Positions 6,001 through 29,277 of a stretch of DNA of 34,827 nucleotides are shown here, in pieces (the stretch's first letter is position 1; each line of letters opens with the position of its first letter). This DNA comes from a virus: positions 1 through 34,827 of the IMG/VR virus record IMGVR_UViG_3300048442_000242; one strand, 5' to 3'. The position numbers were made by a program, and so were the translations under genes. The notes below the pieces were generated by a model. The model did no database searches, was not told where the DNA came from, and was given only the letters and a program-made list of their open reading frames with translations.

Positions 6001-8230
6001 TAACAACCCGTCTTCTTCTCCACTACCTAACTTCTTCTCTTCAGGTATTGTCTCCAACACTATCTTTAATAGTTCTAATGGATTGAATGATGGTGGCACA
6101 AGAAATATGGTCGTCACCTTCAGACAAGGTGGCTCTGGTTTTGATACTGGATTCGGTGGTGTAAGACAACTTGCATTTACAGATAATGATAACATGTATC
6201 TTCGTGGTTCAGGCACGGGCGTTACATCTTTTGGTTCTTGGGCAAAAGTCTGGTCGTCTCTAAATGACGGTCTTGATTCTGGTCTTGACGCTGACAGACT
6301 TGACAATAGACAAGGTGATTGGTATCAAAATGCACTTAACATTAACTACGGTACATTATCTGACAATAGACTTCCTAGATTTGTTAGTGCAACTAACTTC
6401 AGAGATCAAGTAACAGTAAAAGGATTTCTTGGTGATCCTAAATTTAGAATTTACTTCTCTGGTGTAATTCTAGATACGTCCCCTACTGGTGTTTATACTC
6501 CTGGTAACCCAATCAAACTCTATAATGCTAATGCTCAGGCAGTTGCAGATTTTGTTATTGACTCGGTTAGTGTCAATGATGATACTGCAGATAACTTTAA
6601 CGACTTCACCGTTCTAATTGGTAGACTTACTTCTGGTAACTTTACTGGTGCTCTCACCGCTGGTACTGCTACCAACAGATTACCATTTGACGATTTTACA
6701 CTAGAAGATGGCAACACTGTAGATGTTGCTAAGCTAGAAAATGATGGTGGTGTTGGTCTCATCAAGGTTGGTAGAGTTGATGGAACGTCCACGACTCCTG
6801 CATTATTGTTCAGATCATCTCAGGTTGTTCCTGGAGTTAATGCAGATGATCACTATACTGTAAGGTTACAGGCAACTGGCGGTAATGCTACTGCTGGTTC
6901 TGGTAGTTTAAATGCTAGTGTAGCAAATGCTGATGCATTTACTATTAATGGTCAGACAATTTGGAACACTGGTAATATTCAGTTTAGCTCTACTAACATT
7001 TCGGACTATGGTGTTCAACGTGATTCTTCTGGCAATTTTGCTGCTGGAACAATTACTGCAACCTTAACTGGTGCTGCATCACTCAACGTTTTGAAAACTG
7101 GCGATACCATGACTGGATCGCTTGCTCTTGCTGGTGCTGGTTCTAATTTAACAGTCTCTGGTAGTGTTGGTGTTACTGGAACTACAACGTTAACCGATGA
7201 CCTAAATGTTGATTCGGGTGTTCTATTTGTTGATGCTTCTGCTAATGAAGTTGGTATTAACGTAGGCACTAATCCACTGGCTGCTCTGCATCTTAAGGCA
7301 GATAGTGGACTCCTAATCCACACTGCTAGCAATGCTCCTACTCTAGGTGCAAGAATTAGATTTAGCGATCAGCAATCTGATAATTATTCACAGCAAGGTA
7401 CTATTAGATATAATCATTCTGACACAAGTACACCAGGAGGATATTATGACGAAGCCTTCTTTGTTGAAGGCACAGAAACTATTCTTGCTTTCAAGGTTGC
7501 TGGAGACATTATTGCTTCTAGAAGAATTGGTATTAATAATGATAATCCAACATTTGCTCTTGACGTTACAGGAAATGCAAGAATTCGTGATGGTCTAACG
7601 ATTGATAATGCTTCTAACAACAGCGGTGCTCCAATTAACTTCCTTGGTTCTTCTAACCAGAGAAACTTTAGAGTTGGTAACCAATTAATAGCAAACAATC
7701 TGTTTACTATTCAAGCATCTACTGCTGGTGGTGGTCAGTCTTGGAACACAACTCCTGCATTTAGCATTAGAGGAGACGTGAACGCTGTTTCTATTAACAC
7801 ATCAGCGACTTCTGGTACAGATGCTTCAAACAATACAGTTAGAAATTACAAACTCAATATTGAAGGTGATGTTAATTTCAATGGCACTCTCTTCCAGAAT
7901 AACCAAGAGTTTGTTACTTCTAGATGGACTGAAGCTCCTAATGGCGCTGACATTTACAGAGCATCTAAAGTTGGTGTTGGATTCGCTTCTGCTAAAAATC
8001 CAGATGAAGCACTAGAAGTACAAGGTAGCATTGAAGTTACCGAAACAGTGAAGGCAAATGGAGATTCTCAATGGCTTGACACATACGGCATTTTCAAGGC
8101 AAACAGAAATACTATTGATGAAGATGTCACTATCCCACAAGCAACCAATTGTGTGACCGCTGGACCAGTTACTATAAATAACAATAAGACAATTGTTATT
8201 TCTGATGGAGCTTCCTGGAGTATCGTATAA
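1..8230 (+). CDS. Giant virion structural / tail-fibre protein, 5' end outside window
   Basis: The frame is open from base 2, so at least 2,742 residues are present and the true start lies upstream. The first ~90 residues (GGRIYVSQTIGSD.., then a PPDASVVGDN turn) look like the cap of a right-handed beta-helix, as in phage spikes. At ~1879-2581 there are two copies of an all-helical module, each ending AMRNW. Glycine-rich GGSGY-type beta modules lie near 4610-4810 and 5430-5640, and two SGLDAD-type fibre repeats near 5838 and 6276. The tail carries a DTMTGSL motif, an ANEVGINVGTNPLAALHL segment and an NCVTAGPVTI...SDGASWSIV end, the style of T4-like cyanophage fibre or baseplate proteins. It probably sits on the baseplate or fibre surface and contacts the host. 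The exact T4 equivalent (gp10/gp12/gp34-37) is not clear to me. The stop overlaps the next start (TAATG). Confidence 0.85.
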   Translation, partial: NLATNDVGGRIYVSQTIGSDLNDGRSAVNPVRSIKKAAQLAWSTVGVKETIIVSGGDYVEDNPISLPPDASVVGDNLRLVIIRPANPGKHIFKFGDKNYVTGVTYRDQIDSNGDAVATWDFAMVFDDKQRIIIDKEANGDFGTSFPIGHQIFGPQKFSVKFQNNTGLSTLITGLIVKGVNTGSRATITRVEFDTLIGPSAFVNGDIEVDLESGSFVEGERFDFVTGASAGSVYSQTITQQNGLNVLTFTSDPTIDIPPGTVVQLQATPSTGSAFTGFYEIASIDSTESASNIWQVTFFPILGASTWRGDGVGGSYVINQATAVTQSFDTTKIASIRAEGEVVSVDENYTATLPISRLDFSLQGDPSIATGGFQSAQFGNAEDLGGIVLYTNALVGRTNTHEFKEGQEILIEGLPTGGPDLSVLNGKQRIYKVLEDADGRSRRFVIPKKLPAITDANFDPGQFAVAKSFSKVITLSLLNSPSKFPLSSPVERRFQDASVFLRNNREFIADEVVGIINDQFKTDHYSAYNLSGNSFDIFLGNTEDEHVYVSGGTVQLGSGGTIYNITNFTYDNTITGVATITTSSPVASIQEDSIVKLADILLSCDAGQKVYPAYSSPTSTNTGSNGDEQCRQDVIHFVNALVRDLEFGSNHNIIEAAEKYIIGGDIVYIKDEIIQNVRAIEYARELCIFAMRNWRIGDGTPTDDIYVPRYSSVQRYFDDTVITTTAGTPACADVKAAIDTLSFLWVDVISNNQNGTYLDAAYLIARNKDLIAHQALADTFANYPTFALSDTNERKCIRDIRIVINGLVKDLVFGGNEGIVGVADAYFTGTVLTGVPEAQRDETVYAFQRVKQHCIDAMRNWSGGDVDEVTPTGSVYDAASGALTVSFPDPPTAPTTSDRIAFKEEAITYSCTFNSVTGNHASPLRFDSNWGQDYAITNVASSGGVTTVSCTVPTAGSASGSVHAFVSALAEGTILIYDPVTPTVDVARFTNWNILLYNSVPLCANVASTITTAMDLFEDILDGTIPAGSTNTNNGTLFDTSQIRTYPDNFIYDASNQRVSIRGDFDEFPIIEASPYTQNASVISFLGGGGAEVDGNKVKQPNCPFPGLEIDGTASFPNQGKSMVAAAFTIVSFGGTGYKIINDGYTQLVSVFVIFCADGVLAESGGYASITNSATNFGQFALRGTGYREECYSFDQGTISNVSSTPTGRTILTVSGLGREPLEHYVGKIDGYRNTNVNIEYFIDVVAGVTVGPPFTAQLTFDDGTGGGMDLTDLSTGNAVSTSVLSGKTIKLHRPSIVNSSSHTWEFAGSGTNYLALPENGGTKIEAYEQVSENYGRVYVSGTDELGDFKVGTFANIENRTGAITFTGTVTISEVEFLKLKGGDVVVTGFDASNTLGGANSSDSKLPTQKAVRDYITNNLGPYINKPYSTNAVPRALVELTDSGKISIDQIPALRPFQVYTVTDQAARTSIEGALAGDIAIQQDTSTSFILNQDNDSLFLGFQPDPNITITTGEIYTGSLTTGRIQATEYRQGVVFQINITNGGSGYVTPPTIAFAGGNPDPGAISASATCTIANGTVVTVTIETFGGYQGGLGYTTTPTVTFTAPPGAGTQAQGNALIENRLYGDIVNNIKIEDTDTFEDSTSPTANTVNINRVVNTSSFDNNNWVSLSSNQIAASDITSGVIETDRLASGGAANSFTFLRGDQNFALAMQSLKGAETRYFAPLAAQCSIGSSQMIFTTNSDVLIGHEVKQTVNGVASNTNINGVITAAGLTTVSLNNPVTQTIPVGTIIEFERGASPVTFESTFTQGGFVDDVIISNPGLGFTNGQYFDVELLGGTGTGLRVNIVVAGNAVTEITVTDGGTGYNADYTVVTAPGVIGSGSALVLEAKVSTVLRQYANVAIDIQRASDLTISADLFGTIGVSRYKKSQFNIGTAGNGSIELKTGADSGLDADLLDGAQGTFYTNATNLSSGTLSPDRLSGTYNISISNQSGSTLRVITGTNNPSSSPLPNFFSSGIVSNTIFNSSNGLNDGGTRNMVVTFRQGGSGFDTGFGGVRQLAFTDNDNMYLRGSGTGVTSFGSWAKVWSSLNDGLDSGLDADRLDNRQGDWYQNALNINYGTLSDNRLPRFVSATNFRDQVTVKGFLGDPKFRIYFSGVILDTSPTGVYTPGNPIKLYNANAQAVADFVIDSVSVNDDTADNFNDFTVLIGRLTSGNFTGALTAGTATNRLPFDDFTLEDGNTVDVAKLENDGGVGLIKVGRVDGTSTTPALLFRSSQVVPGVNADDHYTVRLQATGGNATAGSGSLNASVANADAFTINGQTIWNTGNIQFSSTNISDYGVQRDSSGNFAAGTITATLTGAASLNVLKTGDTMTGSLALAGAGSNLTVSGSVGVTGTTTLTDDLNVDSGVLFVDASANEVGINVGTNPLAALHLKADSGLLIHTASNAPTLGARIRFSDQQSDNYSQQGTIRYNHSDTSTPGGYYDEAFFVEGTETILAFKVAGDIIASRRIGINNDNPTFALDVTGNARIRDGLTIDNASNNSGAPINFLGSSNQRNFRVGNQLIANNLFTIQASTAGGGQSWNTTPAFSIRGDVNAVSINTSATSGTDASNNTVRNYKLNIEGDVNFNGTLFQNNQEFVTSRWTEAPNGADIYRASKVGVGFASAKNPDEALEVQGSIEVTETVKANGDSQWLDTYGIFKANRNTIDEDVTIPQATNCVTAGPVTINNNKTIVISDGASWSIV
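1879..2080 (+). repeat. Helical module, copy 1, inside the giant protein
   Basis: Encodes a pattern with a conserved Cys, then VNALVRDLEFGSN, an AAEKY helix and a final CIFAMRNW. It is duplicated about 490 bases downstream at the protein level. The DNA has diverged, so this is an old duplication. Confidence 0.7.
2366..2581 (+). repeat. Helical module, copy 2, inside the giant protein
   Basis: Matches copy 1 position by position: Cys, INGLVKDLVFGGN, VADAY, then CIDAMRNW. The spacer between copies holds a further CADVKAAIDTL helix. A related CANVASTITTAMDLFEDIL segment follows at about 3010. Confidence 0.7.
5838..5935 (+). repeat. Fibre repeat SGLDADLLDG..., copy 1
   Basis: Encodes SGLDADLLDGAQGTFY followed by NATNLSSGTLSPDRL. 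This motif recurs in cyanophage tail-fibre proteins. Copy 2 lies about 440 bases downstream. Confidence 0.7.
6276..6375 (+). repeat. Fibre repeat SGLDADRLDN..., copy 2
   Basis: Encodes SGLDADRLDNRQGDWY then NALNINYGTLSDNRL, aligned without gaps to copy 1. This suggests a repeated shaft unit. Confidence 0.7.
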
Positions 8231-15983: not shown

Positions 15984-15990
15984 CTCCCAG

Positions 15991-16025
15991 ATCCCTTCTT
16001 CCTAAATAGGTAAGAAGGGATTTTT
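15991..16025 (+). terminator. Intrinsic terminator with late promoter in its loop
   Basis: A perfect 10-bp inverted repeat (ATCCCTTCTT at 15991-16000, AAGAAGGGAT at 16012-16021) is followed by T-rich sequence. The loop contains CCTAAATAGG. The right arm also holds a Shine-Dalgarno-like AAGAAGG upstream of gene 13. One element could therefore end the upstream RNA, start the next and supply its ribosome site. Confidence 0.8.
16002..16008 (+). promoter_or_regulatory. T4-like late promoter box (CTAAATA) for gene 13
   Basis: CTAAATA lies in the loop of the terminator hairpin. The expected start, about six bases downstream (~16014), would leave the left arm out of the late RNA. Confidence 0.65.
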
Positions 16026-16032
16026 GTGTGTA

Positions 16033-16845
16033 ATGGCGTCTCCAAACTCTAGATCTGATCTTATCACTTATTGTAAGAGACAGTTAGGTGAGCCTGTCCT
16101 ACAAGTAAACGTTGACGACGAGCAGGTAAATAACGTTATTGATGATACCTTTCAGTTCTTTCAAGAGAACTGTTACAACGGTATGGAGCGTGCTTTTTTA
16201 TATCACGAATTAACCGAAGACGATAAAACTAGGTTTGCAGCTAGTGTATCCACAACTAAAACAGATGGATCTGATACTTCAATTTGGAAAGAGACAACAA
16301 ATTACATACCTATACCATCCCATGTAACTGGTATTAGTAAAGTATTTGGTCTTGTTAGTAACTCAATCCGTTCAAATTTATTTGGCGTTGAGTATCAAAT
16401 GTTCTTGAATGATCTATATGCATTTGGATCACTTGATATCCTCAACTATTATATGACCAAGCAATATCTAGAAACTCTAGATATGGTTCTAAACAATGGA
16501 AGTTTCCAACAGTTTAGATTTACAGCACGTCGTGATCGTCTTTATATGGATTTAGATAAAGATTTTTTAAAGAAAGAATCTAATATCCTCATTGAATGTC
16601 ATCGCATGATTGACCCCAATGATGCTACTGAGATGTATAATGATTTGTTTGTTAAGAAGTATGCTACTGCTCTCCTGAAGAGGCAATGGGGTCAGAACTT
16701 GATTAAATATAATAACGTACAGCTCCCTGGCGGTATTACACTCAACGGTAGAGAAATCTACACAGACGCACTTGCAGAGATTGAAAAACTTGAATCGGAA
16801 ATTCTCAGTAAGTATGCAATTCCACCTATGGATATGATCGGATAA
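16033..16845 (+). CDS. 13: Neck protein gp13 (head completion)
   Basis: 270 residues, somewhat shorter than T4 gp13 (309). Family features are the N-terminus MASPNSRSDLITYCKRQLGEP, a VDDEQVNNVIDDTFQFFQENCYNG helix, and the C-terminal LPGGITLNGREIYTDALAEIEKLE segment, which is typical of cyanophage gp13. With gp14 it forms the neck that closes the filled head and joins it to the tail. Translation could begin at a TTG three codons upstream, but ATG 16033 is better. It is followed one base later by gene 14, so 13-14-15-16 is one operon from the late box at 16002. Confidence 0.9.
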   Translation: MASPNSRSDLITYCKRQLGEPVLQVNVDDEQVNNVIDDTFQFFQENCYNGMERAFLYHELTEDDKTRFAASVSTTKTDGSDTSIWKETTNYIPIPSHVTGISKVFGLVSNSIRSNLFGVEYQMFLNDLYAFGSLDILNYYMTKQYLETLDMVLNNGSFQQFRFTARRDRLYMDLDKDFLKKESNILIECHRMIDPNDATEMYNDLFVKKYATALLKRQWGQNLIKYNNVQLPGGITLNGREIYTDALAEIEKLESEILSKYAIPPMDMIG

Positions 16846-17974: not shown

Positions 17975-18774
17975 TGTTAGGGTCACATTTTTATAATCAG
18001 ATTGTTCGTAAGAACATCGTAGCCTTTGGTACACTCTTCAATAATATTACATTGAAGAGTACCGATCCTACTGATGGAACTGTTCTAGAAGAATTAAAAG
18101 TACCATTGGCTTATGGTCCCAAACAAAAATTTATTGTTAGGTTAGAAGAAAATCAATCTAACAGTAAAGTAGCGATTACTTTACCACGTCTCTATTTTGA
18201 GATGACTGGAATTGAGTATGATCCTAGTCGTAAAACATCACCTATTCAAAAATACAGAACTATCATTGATAGTAATGGTGGTGAAGTTAGAGTGCAATAT
18301 GTTCCTGTTCCTTATAATTTAAATTTTGAACTAGGAGTTATGGCTAAGTCTCAGGACGATGCATTGCAAATTACTGAACAAATTTTACCCTACTTCCAAC
18401 CATCTTTCAGTATCGCTCTTAATATGATACCTGATATGAATGAGAAACGCGATATTGCTATTGTTTTAAACAATGTAAGCTACGAAGATCAATGGGATGA
18501 TAGTTTTTATGAGCGTAGATATATCATCTACACTTTAAACTTTACCGTCAAGACTTATCTCTACGGTCCATATAACACTTCTGACGTTATCAAGAAAGCA
18601 ATTATTCATGAAACGCTTGGCGATAAAGCAGTTAATCGTAGAACAATTACAAGAACATATACACCCAAAGCAACTACAGATATCAATACTGATGGAGTCA
18701 TTGACGTTAACGATGATGCTTTATTAGATGCTGGTGATGACTTTGGATTTAATGAAGGGATTCAATTCTTATGA
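17974..18774 (+). CDS. 15: Tail sheath stabiliser / tail completion protein gp15
   Basis: 266 residues, close to T4 gp15 (272). The N-terminus MLGSHFYNQIVRKNIVAFGT and the segments LPRLYFEMTGIEYDPSRK and RRYIIYTLNFTVKTYLYGP match cyanophage gp15. It forms a hexameric ring that caps the tail tube and sheath and binds the neck. The ATG overlaps the gene 14 stop (TAATG), and its own stop overlaps gene 16 (ATGA). Confidence 0.9.
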   Translation: MLGSHFYNQIVRKNIVAFGTLFNNITLKSTDPTDGTVLEELKVPLAYGPKQKFIVRLEENQSNSKVAITLPRLYFEMTGIEYDPSRKTSPIQKYRTIIDSNGGEVRVQYVPVPYNLNFELGVMAKSQDDALQITEQILPYFQPSFSIALNMIPDMNEKRDIAIVLNNVSYEDQWDDSFYERRYIIYTLNFTVKTYLYGPYNTSDVIKKAIIHETLGDKAVNRRTITRTYTPKATTDINTDGVIDVNDDALLDAGDDFGFNEGIQFL

Positions 18775-22403: not shown

Positions 22404-22625
22404 ATGCTTGGACTCTATGTATTACTCACTGGTTTCGTTTTACTTGTAGCATATGCAGGTATGGAAGAAACTATTCGCTTATTTGCTTATGCGGATCTTG
22501 TGATCAGATATCAGTGGGTTAAATTTAGAATGTTTATGATGAGACGTAAATTAGAACAACAACTAATAAAGGATTTACCTGACTACAACAAACTAATAAA
22601 GGAATTAAAAGATGACCAACGATAA
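22404..22625 (+). CDS. Small membrane protein with basic tail (73 aa)
   Basis: Starts MLGLYVLLTGFVLLVAYAGM, an N-terminal transmembrane helix, followed by amphipathic helices (VKFRMFMMRRKLEQQL) and a charged tail. A 13-base direct repeat at 22561 and 22591 gives a repeated QLIKDL/KLIKEL unit. The second copy supplies the AAGGA ribosome site of the next gene, which overlaps by 14 bases. Function unknown. Confidence 0.65.
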   Translation: MLGLYVLLTGFVLLVAYAGMEETIRLFAYADLVIRYQWVKFRMFMMRRKLEQQLIKDLPDYNKLIKELKDDQR

Positions 22626-22911
22626 GGAACTGTCGGATCTCAAACTTGAGAGAAAAGAATGTCCTAAATGTGGTGCTATTTGGATTAACGGCAAGCATGT
22701 TTTTAGTGGCACAGCCGCATCATACGATAGAAGTGAACTAGATCTTGCTGGTTTGGTTTGTAATAAACTAGGTGATGACACTTGTATCAATCCTGTAAAA
22801 GGAAAAGATGGTGGACAGACTTGGGAATATCGTGCAGGATATATTGATGGTATGATCAAAGGAAAAAAAGATTCAATCAATGAACTGAATGATAAATTTG
22901 GAGATCTCTAA
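22612..22911 (+). CDS. CxxC protein (99 aa), possible zinc ribbon
   Basis: An ECPKCGAIWINGK segment near residue 17 holds one CxxC. Two more Cys (VCNKLGDDTCINP, ~50-60) could complete a zinc site. The C-terminal half (WEYRAGYIDGMIKGKKDSIN) is helical. AAGGA nine bases upstream of the ATG supports the start. Function is not recognised. Its stop codon lies within the late box of terL. Confidence 0.65.
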   Translation: MTNDKELSDLKLERKECPKCGAIWINGKHVFSGTAASYDRSELDLAGLVCNKLGDDTCINPVKGKDGGQTWEYRAGYIDGMIKGKKDSINELNDKFGDL

Positions 22912-22934
22912 ATATTAGTGGTGAACTAATATTT
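22908..22934 (+). promoter_or_regulatory. Late promoter box in a perfect inverted repeat, upstream of gene 17
   Basis: CTAAATA (22908-22914) overlaps the left arm of a perfect 10-bp inverted repeat: AAATATTAGT at 22910-22919, loop GGTGA, ACTAATATTT at 22925-22934. The expected late start (~22920) falls in the loop, so late RNA would lack the left arm. The right arm ends four bases before the GTG start. Confidence 0.7.
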
Positions 22935-22938
22935 TGTC

Positions 22939-24588
22939 GTGGCAAGTAATGATGTATATTTGGGTAATCCCAACCTGAAAAAAGCGGGGACCCCAATACA
23001 GTTTACAAAAAAGCAAATTGATGAGTGGATCAAGTGTAAGAATGATCCCATCTACTTTGCTATGAACTATATCAAAATCATTTCTCTTGATGAAGGTTTG
23101 GTGCCTTTTGAGATGTATGATTTTCAAAAAAAGATTTTGACTGATTTTCATGAAAACAGATTCAACATCGCAAAGCTCCCAAGACAAACAGGAAAGTCTA
23201 CTACTGTTGTCGCTTATCTTCTTTATTATGCAATCTTTTACGATAGTGTTAATATTGGTATTCTTGCAAACAAGGCATCTACCGCTAGGGAACTGCTAGG
23301 AAGATTACAACTTGCTTACGAGAATCTACCAAAGTGGATGCAGCATGGTATTCTTGTATGGAACAAAGGTAATGTTGAGTTAGAAAATGGCAGTAAGATA
23401 TTGGCAGCTTCTACATCTGCGAGTGCTGTCCGAGGCATGTCGTTTAACATCCTCTTCCTTGACGAATTCGCATTCGTTCCAAACCATGTTGCAGAGCAAT
23501 TCTTTGCCTCTGTTTATCCTACTATTACTTCTGGTAAATCAACGAAAGTAATTATTATCTCCACGCCTAACGGCATGAATCACTTCTACAAGATGTGGGA
23601 GGATGCCAGTAGGGGTAGAAATGATTACACTACAAACGAAGTACACTGGTCACAGGTCCCTGGAAGGGACTCCAAGTGGAAAGAAGAGACAATTAAGAAC
23701 ACATCTCCAAGACAGTTTGCACAAGAGTTTGAGTGCGACTTCCTTGGGTCTGCTGATACTTTAATCAGCCCATCAAAATTACAAACTATACCATTCCACG
23801 ATCCTATTGCGAGCAATGCAGGACTTGACGTTTATAAGAGAGCAGAAAAAGATCACGAATATATTATTACTGTTGATGTTGCCAGAGGAATTGGTGGCGA
23901 CTATAGTGCTTTCCTCGTGTTTGATATCACCACGATGCCGTATCAAATCGTTGCGAAGTACAGAAATAATGAGATTAAACCTATTTTGTTTCCCTCGGTA
24001 ATTTTTCAAGTCTGTAAAGAATATAATAACCCATACGTTTTGGTAGAAGTAAACGATATTGGCGATTCTATTGCTGCTACTCTCAATTATGATCTTGAAT
24101 ATCCTAACGTACTTATGTGTGCGATGCGTGGTAGAGCTGGTCAAGTTGTTGGGCAGGGGTTCTCAGGATCAAAAACTCAACTAGGTGTCAAGATGAGTGT
24201 AACCGTTAAGAAGATCGGTTGCTCTAATCTCAAAGCTATTATTGAAGAAGACAAGTTGTTATTTAATGACTTCCAAATCTTCCAAGAACTTACTACGTTT
24301 GTACAGAAAAAACAAGCGTGGGAAGCAGACGAGGGATATCACGATGACCTTGTTATGTGTATGGTATTGTTTGCATGGTTAGTCATGCAAGAATATTTCA
24401 AAGAAATGACCGACCAAGATATTAGAAGGAGAATTTATGATGAACAACGTAATCAAATTGAGCAAGATATGGCTCCCTTTGGTTTTATTGATGATGGCAT
24501 GGGTGATGATACCTTCATGGACGCTGACGGAGATCTGTGGGCATATGGAGACAAACAAGAACAAGTTGGATACATGTGGAATTACTAA
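22939..24588 (+). CDS. 17: Large terminase subunit gp17 (TerL)
   Basis: 549 residues (T4 gp17: 610). N-terminal ATPase: Walker A PRQTGKST (Lys86), Walker B ILFLDEF (Asp175, Glu176), coupling motif IIISTPNG (~206-212). C-terminal RNase-H-like nuclease: ITVDVARGIGGDYSA (Asp313), then VLVEVNDIGDS and a late YHDDLVM acidic pair. It pumps DNA into the prohead through gp20 and cuts the concatemer. The start is GTG: the N-terminus MASNDVYLGNPNLKKA fits the family and no in-frame ATG is nearby. No Shine-Dalgarno is visible, and the start abuts the hairpin of the late promoter. Confidence 0.95.
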   Translation: MASNDVYLGNPNLKKAGTPIQFTKKQIDEWIKCKNDPIYFAMNYIKIISLDEGLVPFEMYDFQKKILTDFHENRFNIAKLPRQTGKSTTVVAYLLYYAIFYDSVNIGILANKASTARELLGRLQLAYENLPKWMQHGILVWNKGNVELENGSKILAASTSASAVRGMSFNILFLDEFAFVPNHVAEQFFASVYPTITSGKSTKVIIISTPNGMNHFYKMWEDASRGRNDYTTNEVHWSQVPGRDSKWKEETIKNTSPRQFAQEFECDFLGSADTLISPSKLQTIPFHDPIASNAGLDVYKRAEKDHEYIITVDVARGIGGDYSAFLVFDITTMPYQIVAKYRNNEIKPILFPSVIFQVCKEYNNPYVLVEVNDIGDSIAATLNYDLEYPNVLMCAMRGRAGQVVGQGFSGSKTQLGVKMSVTVKKIGCSNLKAIIEEDKLLFNDFQIFQELTTFVQKKQAWEADEGYHDDLVMCMVLFAWLVMQEYFKEMTDQDIRRRIYDEQRNQIEQDMAPFGFIDDGMGDDTFMDADGDLWAYGDKQEQVGYMWNY

Positions 24589-24818
24589 TGGATATTGGGG
24601 ATCAGTTCAGTCTAGAACACCTTCTTTTTAAAGAAAGAAAATGTAGATCATGCAATAAAAATAAGAGCCTGATTGAAGATTTCTATATGACTAGGAAATC
24701 TAAAAGAGGATTACCGTCAGCATATTCATACGAATGTAAGGATTGTACAGTCAAGAGAATTCTAAATAGTAGGAAGGCAAAAAGACCACTGTCAGATTAC
24801 GAGTATCCAGACTGGTAG
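24588..24818 (+). CDS. Small zinc-ribbon protein (76 aa)
   Basis: Two CxxC pairs (ERKCRSCNKNK and YECKDCTVKR) about 30 residues apart, with FYMTRKSKRGLPSAY between. This is the treble-clef/zinc-ribbon layout seen at the N-terminus of phage HNH endonucleases, but the HNH catalytic part is absent. It likely binds nucleic acid. The ATG overlaps the terL stop (TAATG), so it is coupled to terL. An ORF extension to 24537 overlaps terL and is unlikely. Confidence 0.7.
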   Translation: MDIGDQFSLEHLLFKERKCRSCNKNKSLIEDFYMTRKSKRGLPSAYSYECKDCTVKRILNSRKAKRPLSDYEYPDW

Positions 24819-24859
24819 GTTGTTCATGCATTGTTTCCCCTCTTGAGACATAGGAAATT

Positions 24860-24894
24860 CTAAATACTTTTAGATAAATTTGATATCTAAGAGG
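24860..24894 (+). promoter_or_regulatory. Late promoter box and leader hairpin, gene 18
   Basis: CTAAATA at 24860-24866 is followed by a 10-bp hairpin with one G-U pair: CTTTTAGATA (24867-24876), 7-base loop, TATCTAAGAG (24884-24893). The right arm contains most of the AGAGG ribosome site of gene 18. A late start near 24872 would remove about half the left arm. Confidence 0.6.
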
Positions 24895-24903
24895 TAAAAA
24901 AAC

Positions 24904-27536: not shown

Positions 27537-27562
27537 CTAAATAGTTGAACGCTCAACTATTT
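27537..27562 (+). promoter_or_regulatory. Late promoter box in a perfect inverted repeat, upstream of gene 20
   Basis: CTAAATA (27537-27543) runs into a perfect 10-bp inverted repeat: AAATAGTTGA at 27539-27548, loop ACGC, TCAACTATTT at 27553-27562. The layout matches that before gene 17. The expected start (~27549) is the first loop base. Confidence 0.72.
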
Positions 27563-27573
27563 GTATTTTAATC

Positions 27574-29277
27574 ATGAGTCAGTTATTTGGCTTCCAGATT
27601 AACAGAAAGGAGGGGCAGAGGGGTCAATCCCCTGTCCCTCCTTCTGCTGATGAACCTATCTCCGTTGCTGCTGGTGGGTATTATGGAACGTATGTAGATA
27701 CGGACAATCAAGCTCGTAATGAGTTTGAGATGATTCGTCGTTATCGTGATATGGCACTACACCCAGAAGTGGATAGTGCAGTTGACGAAGTGGTAAATGA
27801 ATTTATCGTGAGTGATGCTCATGATACTCCCGTAGAAGTTAATCTAGATGGTCTAGATGCTGGCATGGGAATTAAGAAAAAAATTCGTGATGAGTTTGAG
27901 TATATCAAACGTTTATTGAATTTTGACAATCGTGCTCATGAACTTGTCAGAGCTTGGTATATTGATGGAAGATTATTTTATCATAAGGTCATTGACCTAG
28001 ACAACCCAAAGAAAGGTATTACAGAACTTCGTTACATTGATCCAATGAAGATCAAGAAAGTTCGTCAGAAAATTGACAATACCCCGAAAGATTCTCTAGC
28101 ACGCCAAGCTATTAAGGGCACTGCTCTTGAGTATGAATACGGAACATTTATTGATTACTATTTGTATAATCCAAAAGGATTTTATAAAGGTGGAACTCTT
28201 GGACCAATTGGAGACATGTCATTGTCCCAAGGTGTAAAGATGGCAGTAGATTCTATTACATTCTGTCCTTCTGGACTACAAGATCTCAATAAAAGAATGG
28301 TTCTTGGTTTCCTCCATAAGGCAATCAAGTCTCTCAATCAACTTAGAATGATTGAAGATTCTCTTGTTATCTATAGATTATCACGCGCACCCGAACGTAG
28401 AATTTTCTACATTGATGTTGGCAATCTACCCAAGGTAAAAGCAGAACAATACTTGCGCGATGTTATGAGTCGCTATCGTAATAAGCAAGTGTATGACGCA
28501 AACACTGGTGAGATGCGTGATGACAAAAAGCATATGAGTATGCTTGAGGATTTCTGGTTGCCTCGTAGAGAGGGTGGACGTGGTACTGAAATTACTACGC
28601 TGCCTGGAGGACAGAACCTTGGGGAACTTAAGGATGTTGAGTATTTTAAAAAGAAACTTTATAACTCTCTCAATCTTCCTCCTTCCCGTCTCACAGACGA
28701 TAACAAAGGATTCAATCTCGGTAAGACCACTGAAGTCCTCCGTGACGAACTTAAGTTCACGAAGTTCATTGGTCGTCTCCGTAAAAGATTCGCTGAAATG
28801 TTCCAAGATATGCTCAAGACCCAGCTTATCCTCAAAGGAGTAATTGCTCCAGAGGATTGGGAGGACATGAAGGAGCATATTCAGTATGACTTCTTGTTTG
28901 ATAATCACTTCAATGAATTAAAAGAAATTGAAATGATGAACCAAAGAATGATGACTGTGACTCAGATGGATCCTTTTGTTGGAAAGTATTTCTCTGTAGA
29001 TTACATCCGTAAAAATATTCTTGGGCAAACTAACAAAGATATGCGTGAGATTGATAAGGAAATGAAGGCAGAAATTTCTTCTGGTCTTGCAATTGATCCT
29101 GCAGAAACAAATGCAATGGATCAGCTTACTCAAGCAAACACTGCACTTGCTCCTGAAATTCAAGCAATGCAAGCAGATGATGCTGCAGAAAGAGATGCAG
29201 TTTCAGCAGATGCTGCGCTTGAAAGAGATATGAAAAAAGCAAAATCCGCGCCTTCAAAACCTAGCGGTGATAAATAA
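27574..29277 (+). CDS. 20: Portal protein gp20
   Basis: 567 residues (T4: 524). Recognised from YGTYVDTDNQARNEFEMIRRYR-type N-terminal text, HPEVDSAVDEVVNEF, the central VIYRLSRAPERRIFYIDVGN stretch used widely as the cyanophage g20 marker, and EMMNQRMMTVTQMDPFVGKYFS. It forms the dodecameric portal at the packaging vertex, nucleates prohead assembly and docks gp17. The Ala/Asp-rich tail (DAAERDAVSADAALERDM) is disordered-like. Its stop overlaps an ATAAATA box. Confidence 0.96.
   Translation: MSQLFGFQINRKEGQRGQSPVPPSADEPISVAAGGYYGTYVDTDNQARNEFEMIRRYRDMALHPEVDSAVDEVVNEFIVSDAHDTPVEVNLDGLDAGMGIKKKIRDEFEYIKRLLNFDNRAHELVRAWYIDGRLFYHKVIDLDNPKKGITELRYIDPMKIKKVRQKIDNTPKDSLARQAIKGTALEYEYGTFIDYYLYNPKGFYKGGTLGPIGDMSLSQGVKMAVDSITFCPSGLQDLNKRMVLGFLHKAIKSLNQLRMIEDSLVIYRLSRAPERRIFYIDVGNLPKVKAEQYLRDVMSRYRNKQVYDANTGEMRDDKKHMSMLEDFWLPRREGGRGTEITTLPGGQNLGELKDVEYFKKKLYNSLNLPPSRLTDDNKGFNLGKTTEVLRDELKFTKFIGRLRKRFAEMFQDMLKTQLILKGVIAPEDWEDMKEHIQYDFLFDNHFNELKEIEMMNQRMMTVTQMDPFVGKYFSVDYIRKNILGQTNKDMREIDKEMKAEISSGLAIDPAETNAMDQLTQANTALAPEIQAMQADDAAERDAVSADAALERDMKKAKSAPSKPSGDK
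29270..29276 (+). promoter_or_regulatory. T4-like late promoter box (ATAAATA)
   Basis: ATAAATA overlaps the gene 20 stop codon and lies 20 bases before the ATG at 29297. A bulged AT-rich inverted repeat (AATAAATT with AATTCTTATT) surrounds it. Confidence 0.55.

Follow-up and report, generated by a model that had tools for sequence, protein, structure and literature searches.

Candidate Late Promoters Nested in Hairpins Upstream of terL and Genes 13 and 20 of T4-like Cyanophages

The terL Leader

The window analyzed in this work is the whole stretch of virus DNA in IMG/VR record IMGVR_UViG_3300048442_000242 (34,827 nucleotides), which carries, among others, the genes for the terminase large subunit (terL), the portal protein (gene 20) and a gene 13-like head–tail adaptor (Table 1). 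The ORF preceding terL ends on the TAA (22909–22911) of the late box CTAAATA, so that three bases of the box double as a stop codon. As stated in a preliminary description of this DNA, the box runs into the left arm of a perfect hairpin of 10 bp (22910–22934), and the latter ends 4 nt before the GTG start codon of terL (22939–22941), with TGTC as the spacer. The hairpin folds with −7.6 kcal/mol (z = −3.2; none of 200 shuffled sequences was equally good), and its stem includes a single G-C pair. The loop, GGTGA, is SD-like in view of its SD complementarity; no SD-like sequence is found in the right arm (−14 to −5), and the GTG lies outside the helix.

Table 1. Position of the genes, late boxes and hairpins discussed in the text.
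Feature	Position	Strand	Basis or remark
Perfect 10-bp hairpin AAATAACAAT-AAGACA-ATTGTTATTT and its late box ATAAATA	8174–8201	+	Ahead of gene 8230, in 3' end of giant ORF
Gene 13 leader, terminator-type hairpin AGATCCCTTCTT-(CCTAAATAGGT)-AAGAAGGGATTT, U-tail ATTTTTG	15989–16026	+	Hairpin proper 15989–16023; late box in loop
Late box CTAAATA of gene 13, in terminator loop	16002–16008	+	Predicted +1 at 16014, in right arm
Gene 13-like head–tail adaptor, phrog_211	16033–16845	+	ATG start proposed
ORF upstream of terL, phrog_484, unknown function	22612–22911	+	Stop inside late box/left arm
Late promoter box CTAAATA of terL, T4-type	22908–22914	+	Motif in sequence
terL hairpin, left arm AAATATTAGT	22910–22919	+	Sequence, folding; predicted missing in late RNA
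terL hairpin, loop GGTGA	22920–22924	+	22920 is the predicted late +1
terL hairpin, right arm ACTAATATTT	22925–22934	+	−14 to −5 relative to GTG
terL, gp17-like terminase large subunit, 549 aa, GTG start	22939–24588	+	ORF
Late box CTAAATA of gene 20	27537–27543	+	Motif
Perfect 10-bp hairpin AAATAGTTGA-ACGC-TCAACTATTT, gene 20 leader	27539–27562	+	Loop from box end +6; covariation
Gene 20, portal protein	27574–29277	+	ORF

In T4, the late box occupies positions −13 to −6 (PMC1524935) and, therefore, transcription is expected to start at box end +6. At terL, this rule predicts a late start at 22920, the first base of the loop, in keeping with the start within the loop foreseen in the preliminary description, and late terL RNA would consequently be devoid of exactly the left arm. 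Folding of the two leaders agreed with the expected difference, since the modelled accessibility of the region from −15 to +3 was 0.18 in read-through RNA and 0.50 in late RNA.

The T4 precedent put forward for this arrangement is real: genes e, soc, 49 and I-TevI have an RBS-sequestering hairpin in their early read-through RNA, the 5' strand of which includes the late promoter (PMC3014915). The terL leader resembles them in that the late box falls in the 5' arm or loop of a hairpin predicted to form only in read-through RNA. However, whereas the gene e hairpin (AATACCTTCTA-TAAATACT-TAGGAGGTATT, found by the same scan that was used for the cyanophages) has the SD (TAGGAGG) within its right arm, that of terL carries the SD-like GGTGA in the loop; moreover, the terL start codon is outside the hairpin, the left arm includes the stop of the upstream ORF, and terL is a packaging gene rather than one for lysozyme or a nuclease. 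A ribosome ending at 22909–22911 would melt the left arm, which weakens simple blocking, and terL translation could instead be coupled to that of the upstream gene. The classic RBS blocking initially proposed for terL is not supported, even though the modelled accessibility still drops without SD or start codon inside the helix.

Late Boxes and Perfect Hairpins in the Window

The CTAAATA sequence occurs nine times on the forward strand of the window and never on the reverse one, always on the coding strand, as expected for a real promoter, and such TATAAATA-like boxes precede terL and genes 18, 20 and 13. In sequence, strand bias and placement before structural genes, they are like cyanophage and T4-type late promoters, for which the motif NATAAATA was described in S-PM2 in a report that mentions neither hairpin nor terminator (PMC2984593). 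Four hairpins with a perfect stem of 10 bp or more and a loop of 3–8 nt are present in the window, against 0.34 expected; in three of them (8176–8201, 22910–22934 and 27539–27562), the AAATA of a late box forms the beginning of the stem. All three share the same geometry: the left arm consists of AAATA plus the next 5 nt, and the loop starts at box end +6. When only the 18 [AC]TAAATA boxes of the window were considered, three stems of at least 10 bp were found versus 0.003 expected; a chance origin of the box-anchored perfect stems is excluded within the window. The T4 rule predicts that the left arm would be missing from the late RNA in all three cases (boxes at 8174, 22908 and 27537).

The fourth perfect 10-bp hairpin (actcttcaat-AATATTAC-attgaagagt, 18033–18060) lies within the tail sheath stabilizer gene, away from any late box. 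A search of the window against Rfam gave no matches. Between terL and gene 18, a small ORF with a CxxC motif (24590–24818), possibly encoding a zinc-binding protein, includes a late box at 24762. Upstream of gene 18 (24818–24903, and at related loci), intergenic TTTCCCC-like DNA precedes the late box and TTTTAGATAAA comes right after it, an arrangement common to T4-like cyanophages.

Related Elements at Genes 13 and 20

Layouts related to that of terL had been suggested for genes 13, 18 and 20. Gene 20, where covariation is strong, bore out the suggestion, and so did gene 13 with an element of another form. Gene 18 was rejected, as most of its hairpin lies past the predicted start site and is not conserved. 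The evaluation of pairing relied on a half-swap test, in which the left half of one phage's leader is joined to the right half of another's and the resulting pairing is compared.

The hairpin preceding gene 13 has a G-C-rich stem of about 12 pairs (−19.2 kcal/mol, z = −4.2) followed by a U-tract, as intrinsic (Rho-independent) terminators do; its loop exceeds the 8-nt limit of the terminator scan, which is why the element was not listed by it. In contrast with such terminators, the loop here is the late box itself, so the downstream gene's own RNA is predicted to escape. The element is present in most of the clade, with the U-tract or much of the stem lost in some members, and arms that compensate each other were found in Syn1, S-PM2, S-RIM32, Sf-CH3, ACG-2014i and S-RSM4 (swap test: p = 0.0001 with n = 13; p = 0.029 and 0.0065 with n = 6). 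No report of a promoter nested in a terminator was found in the literature searched.

A late box was found within 75 nt upstream of gene 20 in all 61 leaders examined, and in many of them the left arm of a hairpin lies between the box and about +3. Pairing is clearly conserved among relatives, with arms unrelated between phages (GTTGA/TCAAC, CTAGAAA/TTTCTAG, GTAGAAC/GTTCTAC, GGGTATAC/GTATACCC), and it was destroyed by swapping (n = 71, z = −8.6, p = 0.0001; p = 0.0001 also for the 29 leaders below 70% identity). The hairpin encloses the box in Syn9 (TTACCCTGAT-AAATAG-ATCAGGGTAA) and S-CAM1, while in S-CAM7, S-B68 and ACG-2014d a terminator or strong hairpin is found just upstream of it. As judged from these leaders, the position of the hairpin relative to the promoter is not fixed across phages, and what the phages have in common is that the 19/20 junction bears a hairpin predicted to be lacking from the late RNA of gene 20 itself. 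With 4 to 60 nt between the end of the right arm and the ATG, RBS blocking cannot be the function that these hairpins share. Genes 18 and 19, which precede gene 20, are themselves late and, therefore, the hairpin probably separates adjoining late genes rather than early from late ones. One further gene 20 leader has the late box in the loop of the hairpin ACTA-(ATAAA)-TAGT, which is extended by CTCAG/CTGAG.

Late Boxes Compared with Control Boxes

The arrangement had also been proposed as a genome-wide rule in this phage group, a notion that did not survive the examination of 1198 non-redundant late boxes and 1071 control boxes ([GT]TAAATA). A hairpin with its left arm at the box was found at 36 of the late boxes, i.e., 3%, the majority having no nested hairpin, and at eight controls (p = 5e-5), although late boxes sit at gene junctions and controls in another genomic context, so that this and the following enrichments may partly reflect junctions generally, a weakness from which the swap tests are free. 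The difference extended to the strongest left-arm hairpins (17 versus 1, p = 2e-4) and to nested terminator-like hairpins with a U-tract (14 versus 1, p = 0.001). Box-enclosing hairpins were not enriched at moderate scores (20 versus 19) but were so at high ones (11 versus 2, p = 0.018). Syn9 had no nested hairpin at any of its 63 late boxes by the perfect-stem test. A window-MFE shuffle test was dropped as too noisy, compact-stem tests and the half-swap test taking its place. As a control, the scan was run on T4, where it scored 9 of 32 TATAAATA boxes and 1 of 82 controls. Its T4 matches included gene e, whose SD lies in the right arm, and a hairpin close to gene 49; some were merely opposed late boxes. 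Box-nested hairpins are, hence, a recurring device and not a rule, and they are a variant of the T4 gene e/soc/49 arrangement rather than a new kind.

Two additional observations were made in the course of this survey. Separate intrinsic terminators lie about 15–43 nt upstream of 42/1198 late boxes and 7/1071 controls (p = 1e-6). In P-RSM4 (GU071099, 169650–169680), a late box directly precedes the left arm of a terminator, AGAGGGGT-AAG-ACCCCTCT, followed by a T-run and an ATG; this element lies two genes past psbA, with a small ORF in between, and the gene that follows carries the annotation of precursor of the major head subunit.

Conservation of the terL Hairpin

Among 80 terL loci from IMG/VR, the layout of box plus hairpin is limited to the clade of the window, and most remoter phages have no late box immediately upstream of terL. 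The TAA of the box closes an upstream frame in 52 of 72 leaders; in one locus, the apparent 3' end of a tRNA gene is found immediately before the terL late box. The inner four pairs (TAGT/ACTA) are near-invariant across 27 unique leaders in the same register, an invariance that is partly by construction, as the pattern by which part of the set was retrieved prescribes the inner GT/AC pairs; these pairs were, accordingly, excluded as evidence for the inner stem. The pattern itself gave 96 unique matches, 66 of them not upstream of terL. Farther out, pairing at positions 5, 6 and 7 is present in 19, 19 and 14 of the 27 leaders (absent from 8, 8 and 13), and pairs 8–10 are maintained chiefly through A/T composition. 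The conservation of pairing that had been anticipated is not supported for the terL hairpin as a whole: the core is kept, outer pairs are frequently lost, and the hairpin occurs within a single clade. The energy of the hairpin in relatives is mostly between −2 and −6 kcal/mol.

Compensatory variants were observed (TTAGT/ACTAA, CTAGT/ACTAG, CCAGT/ACTGG and GTTAGT/ACTAAC), and other lineages present different hairpins (TTACATA/TATGTAA, and AACTAG/TTAGTT in S-PM2). The swap test supported compensation when applied to the leader alone (p = 0.0007, 0.0027 and 0.011 with n = 25, 18 and 10, n falling as redundancy was removed), but not with n = 8 (p = 0.089) or when flanks were included (p = 0.10–0.19, not significant). 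Taken from these alignments, the covariation support for the terL hairpin is modest, and genes 20 and 13 make the stronger case.

Discussion

The reading of the terL leader that we favor, and to which we assign about an even chance, is that of one promoter-nested insulating hairpin that would damp read-through but not the gene's own late expression. It builds on the sequence itself, the excess of such stems over chance, the covariation seen for genes 13 and 20, and the higher frequency of such hairpins at late than at control boxes, and it presupposes read-through into terL. Read-through may be common, since cyanobacteria have no Rho and a good part of their transcript ends do not correspond to canonical terminators (PMC13289151).

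It is conceivable, if unlikely, that the pairing at terL has no function at all, TAGTGGTGAACTA being kept as initial transcribed sequence and SD-like leader, with AT-rich AAATA/TATTT pairing extending it by accident and the perfect stem of the window being an accident of its lineage. The invariant inner pairs are uninformative in this respect, and the incomplete formation of pairs 5–7, the variable energies, the swap test with flanks and a leader that retains the right side of the hairpin while the left one is lost would all fit such a scenario. It is at odds with the leader-only swap test (p = 0.0007–0.011), with compensatory changes such as CCAGT/ACTGG and GTTAGT/ACTAAC, with the hairpins of other lineages, TTACATA/TATGTAA among them, and with the presence in the window of two more perfect stems built on the same geometry. 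Alternatively, the terL hairpin might act on upstream transcription as a weak intrinsic terminator or a pause site, the promoter being nested in it as at gene 13. A T-rich tract does follow the right arm in most leaders (ACTAGTTTTG, ACTAGTATTTT, ACTGAGTTTTA), a full nested terminator exists at gene 13, and the absence of Rho makes hairpin signals matter. Yet the core stem has few G-C pairs, the U-tract is partly within the stem, and the hairpin, too A/T-rich to qualify as an intrinsic terminator, was not called terminator-like by the terminator scan; this option is considered improbable.

A role at the DNA level, whether through late promoters in opposition, through the binding of a dimer or through extrusion of the inverted repeat, is very improbable. 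At least one T4 inverted repeat is made of opposed TATAAATA boxes, but the complement of the terL right arm, AAAATATTAG, contains no TAAATA, so opposed late promoters were rejected at this locus; none of the boxes of the window is a minus-strand CTAAATA, and the unrelated arms of the gene 20 hairpins are unlike a protein-binding site.

Returning to the insulating hairpin, RNA derived from upstream would carry both arms and fold, and RNA from the nested late promoter, starting at the first base of the loop without the left arm, would be unable to do so. The output of terL from read-through RNA would be damped and that from its own late promoter spared. Such damping would most likely be translational, by masking of the ribosome landing zone, because the right arm occupies the stretch from −14 to −5 relative to the GTG. 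The gene 13 version of this design would terminate transcription, its loop holding the promoter. Its likely use would go beyond the separation of early and late expression, in that each late gene would rely on its own promoter; the read-through RNA reaching terL may itself be late.

In a broader and more tentative proposal, possible although somewhat short of an even chance, the T4-like cyanophages (Kyanoviridae), with hosts devoid of Rho, use a compact terminator with a promoter inside at some gene junctions, terL and gene 20 having weaker or translational versions of it. The late box would constitute the loop or the left arm of a terminator or barrier hairpin by which upstream transcription is stopped or silenced, and the late polymerase, starting past the left arm, would escape the very terminator in which it starts. 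If this were true, a single element of 25–40 nt would both block incoming transcription or translation and start the gene's own, allowing tight gene-by-gene control with no extra sequence. It would also account for junctions overlooked by standard annotation, such as the gene 13 element with its over-long loop, and would bring the trick of the T4 lysozyme type, until now a matter of a few genes, to packaging, portal and neck genes in phages that abound in the ocean.
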